Below are positions 2-25,119 of a stretch of DNA of 25,236 nt, in pieces. The translations under genes were made by a program, and so were the position numbers. The first letter of the stretch is position 1. The number at the start of each line of letters is the position of its first letter. The stretch is taken from positions 1-25,236 of IMG/VR virus record IMGVR_UViG_3300028030_000056, one strand, 5' to 3'. Under the pieces are notes generated by a model. That model was not told the origin of the DNA and did no database searches. It worked only from the letters and a program-made list of their open reading frames with translations. This DNA comes from a virus.

Positions 2-409
2 ATTTTACTACTCGCTGAAACTCTGGAAATTAGTAAACAAGAATTTTTCAGAAAAATTGATATAACATATGGTAATTTTACTGGAGATAGAAAAAAAAGA
101 CCTGTAAATTCTGACGCAATAAGGAATATATTACTCTTTTATCCTCAGACAAATCCTATATGGTTATTGATAGGCGAAGGTAATATGCTTTTAACACCCG
201 AGCAGGCATCGGTTCTTTATTCAAATGTGGAGTTGCAGTATTCAGAACCTATTGAATCTGGAGTAAAATATGATAAATCCGAGATAGGGGGTACAGACAT
301 AGCGGATCTACAGAAGACAATAAAGGAGTCGTTGGATACAATCAATGGCTTGGCAAAGGAGAATAGGGAGTTAAGGGCTAGGTTGGAGGGGAGGAGTGAT
401 GAGTTATGA
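2..409 (+). CDS. Phage repressor-like HTH protein (5' end missing)
   Basis: The reading frame is open from base 2, so the gene begins upstream and the start at the TTG at 167 is not real. The visible 135 residues begin in what looks like the second half of an XRE/CI-type helix-turn-helix domain ('LAETLEISKQEFF' then 'GNFTGDRKKRPV'), followed by 'NPIWLLIGEGNML', a phrase typical of Bacteroidota phage repressor-type HTH proteins (family knowledge). Residues after about 95 form a likely coiled coil (IADLQKTIKESLDTINGLAK) suited to dimerisation. The stop codon lies within the heptamer repeat that follows, and the last residues (RSDEL) are encoded by its first units. The likely role is a transcription regulator of the phage; whether it acts as lysogenic repressor is inferred from its position at the edge of the phage genes. 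Confidence 0.7.
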   Translation: MLLLAETLEISKQEFFRKIDITYGNFTGDRKKRPVNSDAIRNILLFYPQTNPIWLLIGEGNMLLTPEQASVLYSNVELQYSEPIESGVKYDKSEIGGTDIADLQKTIKESLDTINGLAKENRELRARLEGRSDEL

Positions 410-10006: not shown

Positions 10007-10348
10007 ATGAATATCCCGAAATTTTTTAAAGACAATCCTGAATGTAAATTTGTCCTCAAAGTTGGAGATCAGTTCTACCTCAAGCACGCTGAAGCTCAGG
10101 CAAAGAATTATGCCAGGATAAGTGGAGCAAAATTGGAGAAGATCAAAAACCCTAATCTCAAGGAAGAGAAGAAAGAAGAAAAGAAAGATGCTACTCCTCA
10201 ACCTACAGCAAAGGAAAAGCTTCAAGCTGAAGCTAAAGAGATGGGTATTGAATTTAAATCAACTACTACCGTAAAAGATCTTAAGAAGCTTATAGCTGCT
10301 AAGAAAGAAGAAGATAAAAATAATTCATCTACTAATAAAGAGAAATAA
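10007..10348 (+). CDS. Small lysine-rich protein with HeH/LEM-like end
   Basis: The 113-residue protein has three parts. Residues 1-47 are a small globular unit (ECKFVLKVGDQFYLKHAEAQ). Residues 48-65 are a Lys/Glu-rich linker. Residues 70-100 ('AEAKEMGIEFKSTTTVKDL' then 'KKLIAAKKEE') resemble a HeH/LEM or SAP-type helix-extended-helix motif, common in small phage proteins near capsid genes. It ends in a charged, Asn/Ser/Lys tail. The stop overlaps the sheath ATG by one base. It may bind DNA or act as a head decoration or connector; neither is shown. Confidence 0.55.
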   Translation: MNIPKFFKDNPECKFVLKVGDQFYLKHAEAQAKNYARISGAKLEKIKNPNLKEEKKEEKKDATPQPTAKEKLQAEAKEMGIEFKSTTTVKDLKKLIAAKKEEDKNNSSTNKEK

Positions 10349-11529
10349 TGGCACATTTAAAAAATGATGTAAAATTTAATATTGTACCGGGCGGACTTGG
10401 AAGGCTACCTGAAGCAAAAGATTATATAAGTGCGATAATGATGGATCTATCCGCTAGTCCTGCTGCTTGGAGTGATGAACCTGTTGGAGTAAAATACGTC
10501 TCTGTGGATCAAGCAGAGGCGGACGGTATAGTTGATGGAGATGCTAATTATGGAGTTCTATGGTACTTTATCCGGGAGTTTTTCCGTATGGCAGGTGCTA
10601 GCGAGCTGTATGTTATTAATTCTTCTCACGCTAATTTTGATGCTCAGAAGTTCTTCGAGATCACTCAAGGAGAAGTCAGACAGGCGTTTTGGTACAATAC
10701 AGGAGGCTACTCTGCAATAGCAACCAAGGTAGGAGAACTCAAGACCTTTGCAGACGCATTGGATGCAATGTATTCTCCATTGGTGATAATCACTAATGTC
10801 AAAGATGAGGCTACGGCTGCTGATGGAGGTGGTAGTAATCCGGACTTAAGAGCTAGCGATGCTCAAGAGATCGCTGTATTGATAGCAGGTGATGGAAGTG
10901 GCAAAGGTAAAGAGATAGCAGACAGCTTGAGCTTGAAGTATATCCCTGCCGGAGGTACTGTCCTCGGACTGCTTTCAAAAGCGAAGGTTCACGAAAATAT
11001 TGGATGGCCTCGTCAATTCCCAATTACTTCAGGTGCAGATTTCCAAAAGATTGTATTTAGTGATGGAAGATTAGCAGACGGAATTACGGAAGCTGATAAG
11101 ATAGCATTAGCCGATAAGGCTTATATGTTTATCCGTCGATTGATAGGTATTGCAGGCAACTTTGTATATGATACATTTACTGCTGTAGCCAATACCAGTG
11201 ATTATTATAGTCTTGAAAACAACAGGACTATCCACAAGGCAAAGAGAGAAATCAGAAAGCATTTGTTACCTGACTTGATGATGCCATTGTATGTGGATGA
11301 AGATGGAAAGTTAGCTCCTGACACTGTAGCATATTTCAAAGCATTGACTTCACATCCTCTTGATAGAATGAGAGGAGAAAATGAGATAAGCGGTTACAAG
11401 GTAGTGATTGATCCTGAACAGAATGTATTGACCACTTCAAAATTGGTAATACAGGTCAAGATACAACCTGTGGGAGTCGCTCGTGAGATAGTTGTAAATA
11501 TTGGTTATACAGTAAAAATCAGCGAATAA
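10348..11529 (+). CDS. Contractile tail sheath protein
   Basis: This 393-residue protein resembles the DUF2586-type sheath proteins of Bacteroidota and Mu-like phages: an N-terminal strand-rich region ('FNIVPGGLGRLPEAKDYISA'), a nucleotide-fold-like middle ('ELYVINSSHANFDAQKFFEI', 'MYSPLVIITNV'), the conserved 'YMFIRRLIGIAGNFVYDTFT', and a C-terminal segment 'LTSHPLDRMRGENEISGY' followed by a beta-rich tail ending 'VREIVVNIGYTVKIS'-like that extends to neighbouring subunits. The sheath contracts to drive the tube through the envelope. It would normally be followed by the tail tube, but a 5-kb fibre gene is inserted between them. Confidence 0.8.
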   Translation: MAHLKNDVKFNIVPGGLGRLPEAKDYISAIMMDLSASPAAWSDEPVGVKYVSVDQAEADGIVDGDANYGVLWYFIREFFRMAGASELYVINSSHANFDAQKFFEITQGEVRQAFWYNTGGYSAIATKVGELKTFADALDAMYSPLVIITNVKDEATAADGGGSNPDLRASDAQEIAVLIAGDGSGKGKEIADSLSLKYIPAGGTVLGLLSKAKVHENIGWPRQFPITSGADFQKIVFSDGRLADGITEADKIALADKAYMFIRRLIGIAGNFVYDTFTAVANTSDYYSLENNRTIHKAKREIRKHLLPDLMMPLYVDEDGKLAPDTVAYFKALTSHPLDRMRGENEISGYKVVIDPEQNVLTTSKLVIQVKIQPVGVAREIVVNIGYTVKISE

Positions 11530-11531
11530 AT

Positions 11532-14500
11532 ATGAAAGTAATTAAGTTTTGGTTATTAATAATGTTGGGTCTGGTACTGACTGCCTCTCTGAAGGGGCAG
11601 ATCAGACCGGATGATTTTCCTTTGGAGGCAAACCCTGATTCTACTAATTTTGAAGTTTACTCTCAAAAAGGAGGTCAGATCAAAAGAGCAAATCTATTTG
11701 CCTTAAAAAAGTACTATGCTCCATTTATTAAGAGTGTAGGATTTGTTCCTTCAGCTACCGGTAATAGTTCACACCTGGCAGAGTTTGTTGAAGCTCCTAA
11801 TGGTAAGGTCTATTATATAGATGGTAAAGGAAATAGTGTTCAGGTGTTTGGAACTCAAGATATACATACTGATGCTACACTATCCGGAGATGGTACAAGT
11901 GGAAGCCCTCTTCACGTAGAAGGAGAACTTACAGACGATCAAAATCTATCGGATGGAGGTCGTTCCGGAACTATACAAAATGTAAATATTGAAGATGGAA
12001 CGGGTGTGTCATTTGATGTGGCTGACAATGATAATGACCCTGAGAATGAACTTCAAACCATTAGCAAAGATCCCAATACTAGAATAGTAACACTGTCGAA
12101 TAGTGGAGGTACATTTGTTGATGAGGTTGATGATATTGATAATGACACACTCAATGAAATTCAAGACTTGGCAATAGATACACTGACTGATAGTTTGTCT
12201 ATTACTCAAGGCAATAAGGTCTATCTGGGTTACTTGATGGGTCGTGATAGTCAAAAACTGACCCTAGTAAATGATACCCTTGGTATAGAGAATGGAAACT
12301 TCGTATATTTAGGGTATCTGATAGGTAGAGATAGTCAGCAGATACATATAGTAAATGATACATTGTGGATTGACAATGGTAATGGAGTACCAATTTCTAA
12401 CTTTGACAAACAATCTCTTAGGTACATAAGCAAACAAAATGAGATTGTGAACATAGGAATAGAGCGAGGTGATTCCATTTATATCAATGTCAATGATGCA
12501 GATAGCAGTGTGATTAACGAATTGCAGGATCTTACCTTTAATGAGACAACTGACAGCTTACATATACAGTACGGCAATACAGTATATCTTGGATCTCTAA
12601 AAGGAGATAATCAAGACTTGTCAGACGGAGGACGGTCCGGGACAAATCAGACTATTAATATCTCCGGGGGAAATGGTGTAGTGGTAGATGTAGCAGACAA
12701 TGACAATGACCCTACTAATGAATATCAATCACTAAGTGTATCCGGGAACAATCTGACAATCTCAAATGGCAATACTGTAACTCTTGATCCCAATGACGCT
12801 GACAGTAATCCATTAAACGAACTTCAAAATCTTAGTCTATCCGGTACGGTATTGTGTATATCCGGAGGTAATTGTATCACATTGCCTTCAGGTGATGGTT
12901 CTGGAGGAGGTGGAGATAATTGGGGGACGGATTCTGTCGTCAGTGACAGCACTATGACAGGCAATGGTACAGCTGCGGATACATTGAGAGTCAATTTGGC
13001 TCTTTCGGTTTTTCAGGCTCAAAATCTAAACTACAATAGTTCTACCAATGAACTATCCATTGACCGAGGAAATACAGTTACACTCAATCCCAATGACGCA
13101 GACTCTGATCCTAGTAACGAGCTTCAGACTATAGGTAAGTCCGGATCTACCGTTACCCTTAGTAATGGAGGAGGCTCATATACTGATGAAGTGAATGATG
13201 CAGACTCTGATCCCAATAATGAAATAGAGACAGCTAGTAATATAGGTACAGGAGCTGAAGTATATAAGCAAAAGACAGGTTCTAATTTTGAATTCAGGAA
13301 ATTGACATCAAGTGACGGTTCTGTCACTATTACTCAAAATGCAGACGATATCAATCTACAAGCTAGTTCCGGAGGAGGAGGAGACAACTGGGGAACTCAA
13401 GTAGTTCAGACAGATGCTTCACTTACCGGTGATGGTACAGCTGCTAATAAGCTCAAGGTAGATCCTATTACTGTCAATACATTTAACGACACTCATCAAT
13501 TTCATCTACCGGATGCACTTGGTAATACGATTGCATTCAAAGGGATAGGAGACATAAGTGTCACTACTCCAAGTAATGGAAGTCACGTTATCGAATTTGA
13601 GTACACCGGAAGTGGCGGAGGTGGTGGTGATGATTGGGGGACTCAGGTAGTGCAGACCAATGGAGGACTTACCGGAGACGGTACAAGTGGAAATCCATTG
13701 GCAGCTATAGATCAAAGTGCAACCAATGAAGACAATACAGCCAGTAATTTAGGCAGTGGAGCAAATGTATATAAGCAAAAGTCCGGATTAGATTTACAGT
13801 TTCGTACATTGACCAGTTCAGATGCTTCAGTAACCATAACAGAAAATGCAAATGAAATAGACCTTAAGGCTACAGGATCAGGCGGAGGCGACAATTGGGG
13901 AAGCCAGGTCGTACAGACTGATGGAACGCTTACAGGAGATGGAACGAGCGGAAATCCATTGCACGCTGTCGGATCAGGAGGAGACGATTGGGGTAGTCAA
14001 GTTGCTCAAGTGGGTTCAGGAATTACCGGAGATGGTACAAGTGGAAACCCATTGACGGCTGTGGACGCAAGTACTACAAACGAGATTGAGACCGCTAGTA
14101 ATATAGGAGGCTACGCTCAAATATATAAGGAGAAAGTTGGTCACGATCTAAGATTCAAGACACTAAGATCTTCTGATGCCTCAGTAACCATAACAGAAAA
14201 TGCAGATCATATAGACCTCAAATCAACAGGATCAGGCGGAGGCGATAATTGGGGAAGCCAGGTAGTACAGACTGATGCTACACTTACCGGAGACGGTACA
14301 GCAGGAAGTCCATTGCACTCTGTCGGGTCAGGAGACGATTGGGGAAGTCAGGTCGTACAGACCAATGGAGGACTTACCGGAGACGGTACGAGTGGAAGTC
14401 CATTGACCGCTGTAGATGCAAGTACTACAAACGAGCTTCAGACTATAAGTAAGTCCGGATCTACTGTCACTCTTAGTAATGGAGGAGGCTCATATACTGA

Positions 14501-16484
14501 TGAAGTAAATGATGCAGATGCAGATCCTTCCAATGAAGATAATACAGCCAGTAATTTAGGCAGTGGAGCAAATGTATATAAGCAAAAGTCCGGATTGGAT
14601 TTACAGTTTCGTACATTGACCAGTTCAGATGCTTCAGTAACCATCACAGAAAATGCAAATGAAATAGACCTCAAGGCTACAGGATCAGGAGGAGGCGACA
14701 ATTGGGGAAGCCAGGTCGTACAGACTGATGGAACACTTACCGGAGACGGTACAGCAGGGAGTCCTTTGAGTGCAGTAGGAAGTGATGACGGAGATTGGGT
14801 TGTGTCCGGAAATAATATGAATACGGGAGTTAGTGGGAATGTAGGGATAGGTCTTTTGCCTACTTATAAGTTGGATGTTGATGGAGTTATTAGATCAAAT
14901 AAAAGAATTATTCTTGACAATGGAGGAAGAAGTATTTATATTGGAAATGGAGCTGGATTATATGAAGATGGTGCTGATCGACGAAATGTAGGTATAGGGT
15001 ATTATTCTTTGAAGAATAATCATTCAGCTTATTATAATGTTGCTGTGGGTATGTATAGCTTACTTAATGATACTTCAGGGGTATCAAATACCGCATTGGG
15101 ATTTTATTCCCTTCGCGAAAGTTTATCCGGAAGTAATAATGTGGCTATTGGTAGAGAATCGGGCTTAAACACCACTACAGGATCTAATAATACAATAATA
15201 GGAGCTTATTCGGGAAAATATATGGAAGGCAATAATAATGTTTTTATAGGGTATTTTTCTGGATACAATGCGATAGGAAATCATAAATTGTATATTGAGA
15301 CTTCAGCTTCTAATACTCCCCTGATTTACGGAGAATTCGACAATGATCTACTCCGTATCAACGGCAATCTCCAAGTCCGTGATGTTTCTACAGACAATAC
15401 CCTTACCAATCTACTCGTCATTGACGGTACTAGCAAGGAAATAAAATCTCGTGCAATCTCGAGTATAGATGTCAATGACGCAGACTCTGATCCTACAAAC
15501 GAGCTTCAGACGATAAGTAAGTCCGGATCTACTGTTACTCTTAGTAATGGAGGAGGCTCATTTACTGATGAAGTGAATGATGCAGATGCAGATCCAAACA
15601 ATGAAATACAAAACCTAGATCAGGTTACTACACAAGGCAATACTACTACTAATGATGTCACTATAGGAAATTTGATTGTACAGAAGGTAGGAGCTTCTAT
15701 AACGCTTGATAATAATTCAGGAGCACCCGGTAAATGGAAGATGTTTATTGATGATAGTAATGATGAATTATTCTTACAACCAAAATACGCAAATAGTACA
15801 CGGTATTATATTAAAGCTCAAAGCGGTAATACTATTTATTCGTACAACACAGTGACAGGAGCAACTGATTTTACTAATTCTTCAGGTGTAGGTGCTGTAG
15901 GCATTAGTCCTGCTAATTATAGGGTTTCAGTCAATAATTCTAGTAATCAGCAATCAATTACGCTATATGGAGATACAAGACAAATAAAATTAGGTACGGA
16001 CTATGGAAGCCCCAACGAGGTGATGATGGTCAATGCCTCTAATGAGTTGGAATATGTAGATCCGCGTAATTTCTTAGCTAAAATACTCGGAACAACAGGC
16101 AATTACAATCTTACAAGTTCCTGGACTGTGATCCCATTTGGAAACGATCCAATAAATTCCGGACAATTTACTTTTGATGATGCTAATGATAAACTGGAAT
16201 ATAATGCATCAGGAACTTATCAGACTTGTTTCGAGGGAGTAGTTGAATATTCAGGATCATCTAGTACTGATATTGAGTTCAAAATAGAATACAATGGTTC
16301 AGCTACTATCACTCCAACATATATACATTCAATTCACGACTTCGATGCATCCAATGAGGAGAAAGTATATGTAAACTTTTGTAATGAAAGATATTGCAGT
16401 TCTGGGCACTATGTTCGTGTAAAAGGAAAAGGTGTAGATAGTCATCTGACTTATTATAAATTAACAACTGAAAAAATCTACTAA
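11532..16484 (+). CDS. Giant secreted repeat fibre / adhesin-like protein
   Basis: This 1650-residue protein starts with a clear signal peptide (residues 1-23, 'KFWLLIMLGLVLTASLKGQ'), rare for virion proteins. Residues 108-1085 carry nine copies of a 'WG(S/T)QVVQTDxxLTGDGT' type unit (near 108, 464, 620, 702, 789, 820, 907, 937, 1058) and Asp-rich 'DADSDPxNELQTI' units (near 168, 322, 420, 520, 557, 995, 1315, 1350) that may bind calcium. Residues 1102-1250 are a left-handed-type region with 'NVGIG', 'SNNVAIGRESG' and 'GNNNVFIGYFSG' repeats, as in YadA-like heads and Bacteroidota tail-fibre domains. The last 140 residues are beta-rich with cysteines 1566, 1617 and 1622 and could be a C1q-like tip. 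It sits between sheath and tube genes. It may be a phage fibre or a surface adhesin. Confidence 0.75.
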   Translation: MKVIKFWLLIMLGLVLTASLKGQIRPDDFPLEANPDSTNFEVYSQKGGQIKRANLFALKKYYAPFIKSVGFVPSATGNSSHLAEFVEAPNGKVYYIDGKGNSVQVFGTQDIHTDATLSGDGTSGSPLHVEGELTDDQNLSDGGRSGTIQNVNIEDGTGVSFDVADNDNDPENELQTISKDPNTRIVTLSNSGGTFVDEVDDIDNDTLNEIQDLAIDTLTDSLSITQGNKVYLGYLMGRDSQKLTLVNDTLGIENGNFVYLGYLIGRDSQQIHIVNDTLWIDNGNGVPISNFDKQSLRYISKQNEIVNIGIERGDSIYINVNDADSSVINELQDLTFNETTDSLHIQYGNTVYLGSLKGDNQDLSDGGRSGTNQTINISGGNGVVVDVADNDNDPTNEYQSLSVSGNNLTISNGNTVTLDPNDADSNPLNELQNLSLSGTVLCISGGNCITLPSGDGSGGGGDNWGTDSVVSDSTMTGNGTAADTLRVNLALSVFQAQNLNYNSSTNELSIDRGNTVTLNPNDADSDPSNELQTIGKSGSTVTLSNGGGSYTDEVNDADSDPNNEIETASNIGTGAEVYKQKTGSNFEFRKLTSSDGSVTITQNADDINLQASSGGGGDNWGTQVVQTDASLTGDGTAANKLKVDPITVNTFNDTHQFHLPDALGNTIAFKGIGDISVTTPSNGSHVIEFEYTGSGGGGGDDWGTQVVQTNGGLTGDGTSGNPLAAIDQSATNEDNTASNLGSGANVYKQKSGLDLQFRTLTSSDASVTITENANEIDLKATGSGGGDNWGSQVVQTDGTLTGDGTSGNPLHAVGSGGDDWGSQVAQVGSGITGDGTSGNPLTAVDASTTNEIETASNIGGYAQIYKEKVGHDLRFKTLRSSDASVTITENADHIDLKSTGSGGGDNWGSQVVQTDATLTGDGTAGSPLHSVGSGDDWGSQVVQTNGGLTGDGTSGSPLTAVDASTTNELQTISKSGSTVTLSNGGGSYTDEVNDADADPSNEDNTASNLGSGANVYKQKSGLDLQFRTLTSSDASVTITENANEIDLKATGSGGGDNWGSQVVQTDGTLTGDGTAGSPLSAVGSDDGDWVVSGNNMNTGVSGNVGIGLLPTYKLDVDGVIRSNKRIILDNGGRSIYIGNGAGLYEDGADRRNVGIGYYSLKNNHSAYYNVAVGMYSLLNDTSGVSNTALGFYSLRESLSGSNNVAIGRESGLNTTTGSNNTIIGAYSGKYMEGNNNVFIGYFSGYNAIGNHKLYIETSASNTPLIYGEFDNDLLRINGNLQVRDVSTDNTLTNLLVIDGTSKEIKSRAISSIDVNDADSDPTNELQTISKSGSTVTLSNGGGSFTDEVNDADADPNNEIQNLDQVTTQGNTTTNDVTIGNLIVQKVGASITLDNNSGAPGKWKMFIDDSNDELFLQPKYANSTRYYIKAQSGNTIYSYNTVTGATDFTNSSGVGAVGISPANYRVSVNNSSNQQSITLYGDTRQIKLGTDYGSPNEVMMVNASNELEYVDPRNFLAKILGTTGNYNLTSSWTVIPFGNDPINSGQFTFDDANDKLEYNASGTYQTCFEGVVEYSGSSSTDIEFKIEYNGSATITPTYIHSIHDFDASNEEKVYVNFCNERYCSSGHYVRVKGKGVDSHLTYYKLTTEKIY
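13725..13927 (+). repeat. 203-bp direct repeat inside the fibre gene, copy 1
   Basis: Bases 13725-13927 recur at 14532-14734, 807 bp later, with about five differences, mostly at third codon positions. The copies encode residues 732-799 and 1001-1068, identical in protein. Homologous recombination between them would delete or duplicate 269 codons in frame. Confidence 0.9.
14532..14734 (+). repeat. 203-bp direct repeat inside the fibre gene, copy 2
   Basis: This is the second copy of the repeat starting at 13725, in frame. It lies directly before the end of the repeat region and the transition to the 'NVGIG' head-like region. Confidence 0.9.
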
Positions 16485-16496
16485 AAATTAATCAAT

Positions 16497-16928
16497 ATGG
16501 CACTTAATAAAGAACAAACTATTAGAGGTACTGCATATTCTTGGTCTCAAATAAAAATCAATATAGGAGGCAATGTTATCTCTGAAGTAAAAGCTATCTC
16601 TTATAAGACAAAACAAGCTAAGCAAAACAACTATGGAGCTGGATCAGGAGCATTAAGCAGATCTCGAGGGAAGAAAGAATATGAAGGATCTATCCAGTTA
16701 TTTATGACTGCAATGGAGTCTCTTCGTAAAAATGCAAAGTCCGGTGATCTGACAGACATCGCTCCTTTTACAATAGTAGTGTCTTATCTTCCTGAAGGAG
16801 GTACGATAGTTACTCATACACTTAAGTATTGTGAGTTCTTGGAGGACGGCTATGATGTAAAAGAAGGTGATATGGAAGTAGCTCCTACTCTACCAATCAT
16901 CATTGGCGGTGTAGATTATGGCATATAG
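16497..16928 (+). CDS. Tail tube protein
   Basis: The 143-residue protein has the beta-rich layout of contractile tail tube subunits: 'YSWSQIKINIGGNVISEVKA' with 'ISYKTKQAKQNNYGAGSGAL', a hairpin loop, 'GKKEYEGSIQLFMTAMESL', and closing strands 'THTLKYCEFLEDGYDVKEGD' and 'LPIIIGGVDYG'. It forms the inner tube pushed into the cell. It is followed after 48 bp by the tail chaperone with its frameshift, then the tape measure, the standard tail order. The only oddity is the 5-kb gene separating it from the sheath gene. Confidence 0.85.
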   Translation: MALNKEQTIRGTAYSWSQIKINIGGNVISEVKAISYKTKQAKQNNYGAGSGALSRSRGKKEYEGSIQLFMTAMESLRKNAKSGDLTDIAPFTIVVSYLPEGGTIVTHTLKYCEFLEDGYDVKEGDMEVAPTLPIIIGGVDYGI

Positions 16929-17500: not shown

Positions 17501-18193
17501 ATGAAGAATTTTAAGTTTTTATCGCTTTTCACTTTACTGCTATTAGCCTTTGTGCTAAGTGCTCAAAACCCACATATTTACAAGGAGGATTATGTTCCGG
17601 ATAATTCTGCTAAGATGGGGGTTGATGATGAGTTGTATGTTCCGGATAATTTTGCTATTGTGGAGATAGACAATAAAGAGTATTCCGGTTTGGATGTATC
17701 ATCACTGGATGATGATCTAACCGTGACCGGTTCTTATATGTATTTATCCAATGATAAACAGGATTTACAAGTAACGTATGTATCGAATCCTTTAGATAAA
17801 GAAGAGATATCAAGAGAATCTGAAGTAAAAGAAGCTACATTAAGTACGACACCTCAAGTTACGTCGAATGACCTTCCTGATCCACCTTATGATGATGATA
17901 AACCTGACGCCTCTAAATTCAGTAAATGGTATTACGCCTTGTATGGAGTCTTAGTTTGGCTTGGAGGTGTACTAGGTAAGGTATTCGGTCTGAAAGAAAT
18001 GATTCCTAAGTATGTATATGTAGTCATAGCCTTTGGAATAGTTATAGCAGGAGGTTTTATCTGGTACGGATTTGACTTTATGATGTTGGCTATTACATTG
18101 GCATCGACACTGGGTATTTATGATATATTAGCACCATTGGTAAAGAAAAAGAAAACACTTGAACAGGTATTATTAAACGATAAAGTACAGTAA
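17501..18193 (+). CDS. Secreted multi-span membrane protein, unknown function
   Basis: The 230-residue protein has a signal peptide (1-22, 'FTLLLLAFVLSAQ') followed by a 115-residue acidic soluble region containing a duplicated 'YVPDN' unit (residues 31-35 and 46-50) and an Asp/Pro-rich stretch (125-137), then up to three membrane spans at about 143-163, 171-190 and 192-213, and a lysine-rich end (215-218). It has the topology of an inner-membrane protein with an exported N-terminal domain. It lies between the chaperone and tape measure genes. It might be a holin, an injection-channel factor or a host-surface protein; I know no close family. Confidence 0.6.
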   Translation: MKNFKFLSLFTLLLLAFVLSAQNPHIYKEDYVPDNSAKMGVDDELYVPDNFAIVEIDNKEYSGLDVSSLDDDLTVTGSYMYLSNDKQDLQVTYVSNPLDKEEISRESEVKEATLSTTPQVTSNDLPDPPYDDDKPDASKFSKWYYALYGVLVWLGGVLGKVFGLKEMIPKYVYVVIAFGIVIAGGFIWYGFDFMMLAITLASTLGIYDILAPLVKKKKTLEQVLLNDKVQ

Positions 18194-24363: not shown

Positions 24364-25119
24364 ATGAAAAAATTAATTATACCCAACGGAGGAATGCCAT
24401 TTGAAGGCGATGATTTGAAATATATGCAGGATGCATTCATTGAAGGATTTAGATTTCTCTTAAAGGCTTTTTCACCTGATGAAGATAATTTCATTCTTCA
24501 AGGAGTAGAGATTACTGAAGACAGTGGAGTAACAACTCTTTCTCCAGGATTAGTTGTACTCAGCTACGAGATACTTGAATTTCCCGGAGCTTCTTTTCCT
24601 ACTTCAGATATTAATTCCAAAGCTATAGTCCTTGATGTTAGTTATGATGCTCAAGGCAATGAAGTTTTTGCTGACAATGTGAGTAAAGACACCTATGAAG
24701 TAAGAAAATGTAAAATAGCTACCTCTACCGGTGTCCAAGAAGAGTTGCAGGTAACTGACTCTCATCAATGGATTTATCTAGGTGAGAAGATTATGCAGCT
24801 TCCTCATCTTGCTACGAAGACTATTTTAGAAACTGATGATTATGTATCAGGTGATTTGATTGCGTTTAAGCAAGGTGCTATTGTGGTTCTACAAGGCTCT
24901 ATCAATTCAAGTACCGGAAGTTTCGATGGTGAGATTATTCCTCAATTACCTGAGAAGCTAAGACCTACATCTACTATTAAAACATTGATTCCTTTGAATG
25001 ATACTGACGAAGATACATTTTCAAAACAAGGAGTATTGATTATTTATCCAAGCGGTTATGTCGGTTTGTATCACCCTGATCAAAGCGTCATTATCTCCAA
25101 TGTGTCTTATGTAGTCTAA
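24364..25119 (+). CDS. Candidate baseplate-attached fibre or fibre-adaptor protein
   Basis: The protein has 251 residues. The opening 'MKKLIIPNGGMPFEGDDLKY' followed by 'MQDAFIEGFRFLLKAFSPDE' is a pattern often seen at the start of proteins encoded just after gpI in Bacteroidota phages. The rest is beta-rich ('LVVLSYEILEFPGASFPTSD', 'HQWIYLGEKIMQLP', 'FKQGAIVVLQGSINSSTG') and ends with 'IIYPSGYVGLYHPDQSVIIS', resembling the tail-fibre-tip or baseplate-attached adaptor type. It contains no signal peptide or repeats. Its place after the wedge genes and before the terminal promoter suggests it is the last gene of the late operon. Confidence 0.5.
   Translation: MKKLIIPNGGMPFEGDDLKYMQDAFIEGFRFLLKAFSPDEDNFILQGVEITEDSGVTTLSPGLVVLSYEILEFPGASFPTSDINSKAIVLDVSYDAQGNEVFADNVSKDTYEVRKCKIATSTGVQEELQVTDSHQWIYLGEKIMQLPHLATKTILETDDYVSGDLIAFKQGAIVVLQGSINSSTGSFDGEIIPQLPEKLRPTSTIKTLIPLNDTDEDTFSKQGVLIIYPSGYVGLYHPDQSVIISNVSYVV

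Follow-up and report, generated by a model that had tools for sequence, protein, structure and literature searches.

A candidate Sec-exported tail fibre encoded between the sheath and tube genes of a Mu-like phage of Bacteroidota

The tail sheath and tail tube-like genes of a Mu-like phage are separated by a gene for a repeat-rich protein of 1650 amino acids. We think it probable that this protein is a true component of the virion, a tail fibre whose precursor carries a functional Sec signal peptide; it would be exported by the Sec system and attached to virions around the time of lysis. The reading is supported by a signal peptide that follows the Bacteroidetes Q-rule, by the location of the gene in the late tail operon, by an insertion confined to a single clade, by conservation and selection in analogous systems, and by the annotated presence of analogous fibres in virions. 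A virion role for the protein is supported by analogy with Cellulophaga phages; the assembly route proposed below is inferred.

Phage and gene order

The window analysed here is an IMG/VR record of 25,236 bases and belongs to a Mu-like phage with a contractile tail. The minus strand carries the head and packaging set (neck, MuF-like, portal, adaptor, TerL and TerS), while protease, capsid, sheath, tube, tape measure, baseplate hub, spike, W, J and I are encoded on the plus strand. The sheath gene (10348-11529, plus strand) encodes a DUF2586 protein (E 6.5e-38; phrog_907, E 1.5e-31), with tblastn matches to the isolated Winoviridae, namely Flavobacterium phages lotta8-1/pippi8-1 and FPSV-S1 and Winogradskyella phage Peternella_1. 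The divergent gene order of the window is that of Peternella_1. With the DUF2586 sheath, the MuF-like head protein, the portal and this gene order, the window has the features of the Winoviridae and of Mu-like phages with a DUF2586 sheath; the best reading is a Mu-like, contractile-tailed, Winoviridae-like phage of Bacteroidota. A partial frame at the edge of the window (2-409) looks by eye like a helix-turn-helix repressor, which would fit a temperate lifestyle.

Downstream of the baseplate genes J and I, where a tail fibre is normally encoded, lies a gene for a signal-less protein of 251 amino acids (24364-25119, plus strand), possibly an adaptor. In lotta8-1 and Peternella_1 this position holds the genes annotated as tail fibres, and phmmer finds relatives of the 251-residue protein in loci L010, L011 and L023.

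Fibre gene at the sheath-tube junction

The fibre gene extends from 11532 to 16484 on the plus strand, exactly the coordinates and length given in the original prediction. Its ATG lies 2 bp past the sheath stop codon, and the ATG of the tube-like gene (16497-16928, plus strand; phrog_4579 'tail protein', E 1.4e-14; phrog_9206) follows 12 bp past its own stop. This location in the late tail operon, combined with a repeat-rich shaft, upholds the assignment of the product as a fibre. The prediction further held that sheath and tube genes are normally adjacent and that an insertion between them is unusual, and a comparison of junctions in relatives bears out both points. The tube-like gene directly follows the sheath gene in 79 related loci, a set that is not de-replicated, with a gap of at most 75 bp; the gap is 9 bp in Mu and 12 bp in P2. 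Open junctions are confined to one clade.

We counted a junction as open when one or more genes lay between sheath and tube, or when the contig continued from the sheath, or from sheath-W-X, straight into signal-peptide genes. There are ten distinct loci of this kind (the window, L020-L025, L043, L050 and L069), and all ten have signal-peptide genes with Gln at position +1 in the gap. In the sheath tree they fall within one clade of 11 (support 100/92), whose eleventh member, L052, is a contig that ends at the sheath and is, like all such contigs, labelled adjacent by default. Judged from this tree, the insertion looks like a single event. The closest relatives keep the start geometry of the fibre gene, with gaps to the sheath of 0 bp in L021, 2 bp in L024 and 3 bp in L025.

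In L022, L043, L050 and L069 the inserted block consists of W, an X-type baseplate gene and then one or more fibre genes. Other relatives encode a long fibre after W-X, signal-less in L006, L017 and the isolates and with a signal peptide in L027, L059, L085 and L096. The window has no long fibre gene after W, and gene 11532-16484 takes the place of the fibre normally found after W-X. The W-X-fibre block after the sheath in clade members and the missing post-W fibre of the window together suggest one move of the fibre gene, and the most economical reading of these arrangements is a single relocation in this clade, of the fibre alone or with W-X, to the sheath-tube junction. The sheath-tube interval of L022 (9153-13821) starts with W and the X-type gene, followed by a copy of the N-terminal module described below that lacks a signal, then by two signal-peptide fibres and two small proteins that are exported or membrane-bound; the two fibres share another N-terminus, AQ[AV]TKIDxxxLxKP.

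Fibre architecture

The signal peptide and a conserved N-terminal module are followed by a shaft rich in G, S, N, T and D (residues 111-1085; 11863-14787). Repeat units noticed in the original prediction are real: motif counts give nine D-x-[DN]-x-[DN]-P/S/T..NE, eight GD[ND]WG and six LTGDGT units. A region with NNVxIG-type repeats resembling YadA heads follows (residues ~1086-1330; 14788-15521), the repeats themselves being visible at ~1150-1330. Residues 1135-1334 give weak tblastn matches to cyanophage virion structural proteins and to LR756500; the repeats have no sequence match in Pfam or the PDB, and their likeness to YadA is visual only. A distal shaft with one further D-x-D-x-D unit (15522-15971) leads to a C-terminal region with a possible tip (last ~170 residues; 15972-16484), which contains three Cys and has no relatives in the searched collections, viral contigs included. 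A single-sequence model of this tip was unusable (pLDDT 37). No family in Pfam, PHROGs or NCBIfam could be assigned to the fibre as a whole.

Signal peptide

The precursor starts with a Sec/SPase I-type signal peptide, MKVIKFWLLIMLGLVLTASLKG (residues 1-22; 11532-11597), with a predicted cut before Gln23 (MKVIKFWLLIMLGLVLTASLKG^QIRPDD); like all signal-peptide calls in this work, it comes from a rule-based predictor. The signal peptide of the original prediction is thereby recovered and specified as one obeying the Q-rule, with Lys/Arg in the n-region, a hydrophobic h-region, a small residue at -1 and Gln at +1 (MKVIKFW...TASLKG^QIRP). Substrates of the Bacteroidetes SPase I characteristically have Gln at +1, which is afterwards capped as pyroglutamate (PMC5837995, PMC10653852).

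Only two of the 25 window proteins were called in the scan, the fibre (LKG^QIRP) and a protein of 230 amino acids (17501-18193, plus strand; LSA^QNPH) that is encoded 5' of the tape measure gene and has hydrophobic C-terminal segments; L021 may contain a short counterpart of this second gene (10336-10749). As an outside control, none of 24 structural proteins of Mu and P2 was called. Small late genes with Q-rule signal peptides, possibly spanin-like, are found in isolated Winoviridae (L113, 33331-33774; L114, 35071-35436). The major capsid proteins of many relatives (L007, L008, L011, L012, L112-L114 and others) begin with a positively charged hydrophobic stretch that resembles a signal peptide or membrane helix and is not followed by Gln.

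When a predictor blind to Gln was used, a small residue and then Gln followed the h-region in 23 of 24 non-core proteins with hydrophobic N-termini encoded downstream of the sheath, and in 0 of the 24 major capsid proteins used as controls, which have hydrophobic N-termini as well (p 1.6e-12). This bears on the main alternative, in which the N-terminus does not serve export and is either kept on the fibre as a hydrophobic peptide for docking or clipped off by a phage protease, assembly being wholly cytoplasmic. Such a scheme would account for the annotation of signal-peptide fibres as virion proteins (see below), and the hydrophobic N-termini of the relatives' capsid proteins are presumably not for export. 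In phages of P. gingivalis, signal removal from the major capsid protein has been attributed to the prohead protease (PMC10367356), which we count in its favour. However, Gln after the hydrophobic stretch is diagnostic of SPase I and would be pointless for a greasy plug, and Sec signals typically show such a charged n-region and a small residue at -1. We consider wholly cytoplasmic assembly unlikely.

Signal-peptide fibres of Cellulophaga phages

Thirteen Q-rule signal-peptide proteins in five isolated Cellulophaga phages are flagged in GenBank as virion proteins by MS/MS, an annotation that records the presence of the protein and is silent on whether the signal peptide remains on it. These are gp091, gp092, gp093 and gp094 of phi10:1, gp085, gp086 and gp087 of phi18:3, gp25 and gp26 of phi39:1, gp08 of phiSM, and gp101, gp102 and gp103 of phi19:1. 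The five phages include the sheathed phiSM and members of the Assiduviridae and Pachyviridae. The premise from which the original prediction set out, that signal peptides are rare on virion fibres, therefore fails for Bacteroidota phages. Contamination of virion preparations by envelope could explain the MS/MS detection, although phiSM gp09 (L118, 7154-10438) and phi10:1 gp095 (L124, 5962-7452), pectate-lyase-like proteins with signal peptides that carry no MS/MS flag despite flagged neighbours, speak against it. The fibres of the crAss-like isolates crAss001 and phi14:2 have no signal peptides; from the genomes compared, signal-peptide fibres are widespread in Bacteroidota phages and not universal.

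Among five phages, the signal peptide of the QTVIK-module (gp093-type) differs pairwise by 1-7 synonymous and 0 nonsynonymous changes in 20 codons, the pairs not being independent; on this codon evidence the QTVIK-type signal peptide is kept by purifying selection. The enzyme bodies of signal-peptide fibres are interchangeable. phiSM gp09, which has a signal, matches the signal-less, MS/MS-flagged gp024 of phi13:1 at 63% over 1081 aa, and phi10:1 gp093 (with signal) matches phi17:2 gp054 (signal-less) at 50% over 658 aa. Since such enzyme bodies occur with and without a signal, and the module of the window fibre is signal-less in L022, the signal appears to be a replaceable part. Identical or near-identical N-termini composed of a signal peptide and QTVIK, or a signal peptide and QTVEG, were seen in L122, L123, L124, L125, L127, L128 and L129. 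The N-terminal cassettes span Assiduviridae, Pachyviridae and, for QTVEG only, Duneviridae, which looks like swapping across families.

No sequence similarity between the Cellulophaga signal-peptide fibres and the window fibre was detectable by tblastn, so what these phages offer is an analogy in kind and not a case of direct homology.

Late-operon context

An exported protein need not be a virion protein; displayed by lysogens or by infected cells, the fibre could instead act as an adhesin or in superinfection exclusion. The signal peptide and the adhesin-like, repeat-rich sequence fit such a role, in which a surface-displayed tail-like fibre could mask receptors. Its genetic setting argues otherwise. 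The gene is embedded among late structural genes and no promoter of its own was found in front of it: the sole nearby match to the Bacteroidetes-type pattern lies inside the ORF (11621), and matches across the window are about as numerous as expected by chance. There is no evident outer-membrane route or anchor either, as neither a T9SS C-terminal domain (Pfam/NCBIfam, E 0.1) nor a YadA C-terminal membrane anchor (Pfam or NCBIfam) was matched and the sequence has no SPII lipobox, the +1 residue being Gln and the first Cys not coming before residue 442. Furthermore, annotation places comparable fibres in virions, and the gene replaces the usual W-X fibre. The suggestion that the protein is displayed on the host surface during lysogeny thus finds no footing in the gene's position or sequence, and we regard a non-virion role in general as quite improbable.

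Conserved mature N-terminal module

Directly after the predicted cut lies a conserved module (residues 23-110; 11598-11862) with the pattern Q[VI]RPDxFPxExxPxxxNFEVYSQKxGxxRRAxLxxLKxY ... YIDxxG. Its identity across L018, L020-L025, L036 and L038 is 37-52% (alignments A1 and A3), while the fibres otherwise differ. It extends to other phage types, represented by L018 with a different tape measure (phrog_20660) and by L038 with a phrog_6681 terminase and a phrog_6547 portal, and a related form, QVRPDLAP...DAIYTQEDG, occurs in L043. In L022 a stop codon immediately precedes the module, which there opens a signal-less protein of 161 amino acids. A motif scan of 84,980 bacterial species genomes found the module in one, on a MAG contig of 6.5 kb (L036); searching 397 genomes of the family of L036 with a profile gave no further case. 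Its recurrence in phages and near-absence from bacterial genomes indicate that it is a phage module that is usually, though not in every case, preceded by a signal peptide. The structure model of the module is weak (pLDDT 62), and its matches to PDB profiles are weak and repeat-like. Position and conservation make docking a candidate role, for which the model gives no structural support.

That the fibre is a recently captured host adhesin gene with a left-over signal peptide, an origin the original prediction had also entertained, is very improbable: the DxDxDP..NE and NNVxIG repeats are reminiscent of secreted Bacteroidota proteins, but the mature module is nearly absent from host genomes and common to diverse phages, a comparable signal (QTVIK) is under purifying selection, and the GC content of the fibre gene (0.399) matches that of its sheath (0.412) and tube (0.377) neighbours.

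Proposed export and assembly

For an exported virion fibre, we propose the following route. The gene would be transcribed along with the late tail operon, Sec would export the precursor, signal peptidase I would cleave it ahead of Gln23, and the new N-terminus would probably be capped as pyroglutamate. Folding and trimerisation of the shaft would take place outside the cytoplasm. With no T9SS domain, lipobox or YadA anchor found, the fibre would stay in the periplasm and meet the tails once the envelope opens. Around lysis, tails assembled in the cytoplasm could thus encounter a pool of fibres, which would dock through the conserved mature N-terminal module, leaving the distal end to bind or process the host surface. 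Counting against this route, the fibres of the isolated Winoviridae lotta8-1, FPSV-S1 and Peternella_1 are signal-less, and export of a fibre away from the cytoplasmic site of assembly is mechanistically awkward.

More generally, many tailed Bacteroidota phages may use Sec-exported fibres that mature in the periplasm (SPase I, pyroglutamate), attach during or after lysis, and exchange cassettes of signal peptide and docking module among otherwise unrelated phages. We put this broader proposal forward tentatively, at a little short of an even chance.

Implications and comparison with known systems

Tailed phages are taught as particles assembled in the cytoplasm. If fibres of Bacteroidota phages do pass through Sec, their attachment must be extracytoplasmic and virion maturation would be linked to the host glutaminyl cyclase; this assembly route would be new if confirmed. 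It would change how receptor-binding proteins of gut and marine Bacteroidota phages are found and expressed, as a signal peptide would no longer mean that a protein is absent from the virion. Signal-peptide genes of such phages filed as host-modifying are likely to include annotation errors. The literature searched contained no description of Q-rule signal peptides on virion fibres and only tangential papers; subscription journals were thinly covered in it, and priority cannot be claimed.

Several known systems share part of this arrangement. Llp of T5 and the Lom/Cor-type proteins are small phage-encoded, envelope-directed proteins that mask receptors or reside in the membrane; in contrast to the window protein, they are not long fibres with conserved mature N-terminal modules. 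The Nixviridae phages of P. gingivalis have genes with Bacteroidetes Q-rule signal peptides like that of the window (PMC10367356). Those genes are described as being of unknown function, with modification of the host outer membrane as a suggestion, and are not presented as virion fibres (PMC10367356). The Winoviridae proteins lotta8-1 gp46, FPSV-S1 QCW20327.1 and Peternella_1 gp53 resemble the window fibre as long non-core fibres encoded in the tail operon of phages with a DUF2586 sheath, yet they lack a signal peptide, are encoded elsewhere (after baseplate W-X) and differ in sequence. The fibres of the Cellulophaga phages phi10:1, phi18:3, phi19:1, phi39:1 and phiSM are not encoded between sheath and tube, and their signal peptides are unmentioned in the annotation consulted. 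They are repetitive or pectate-lyase proteins from tandem structural genes and are recorded in virions by MS/MS. Like the window fibre, they are long fibres with a Q-rule Sec signal peptide.
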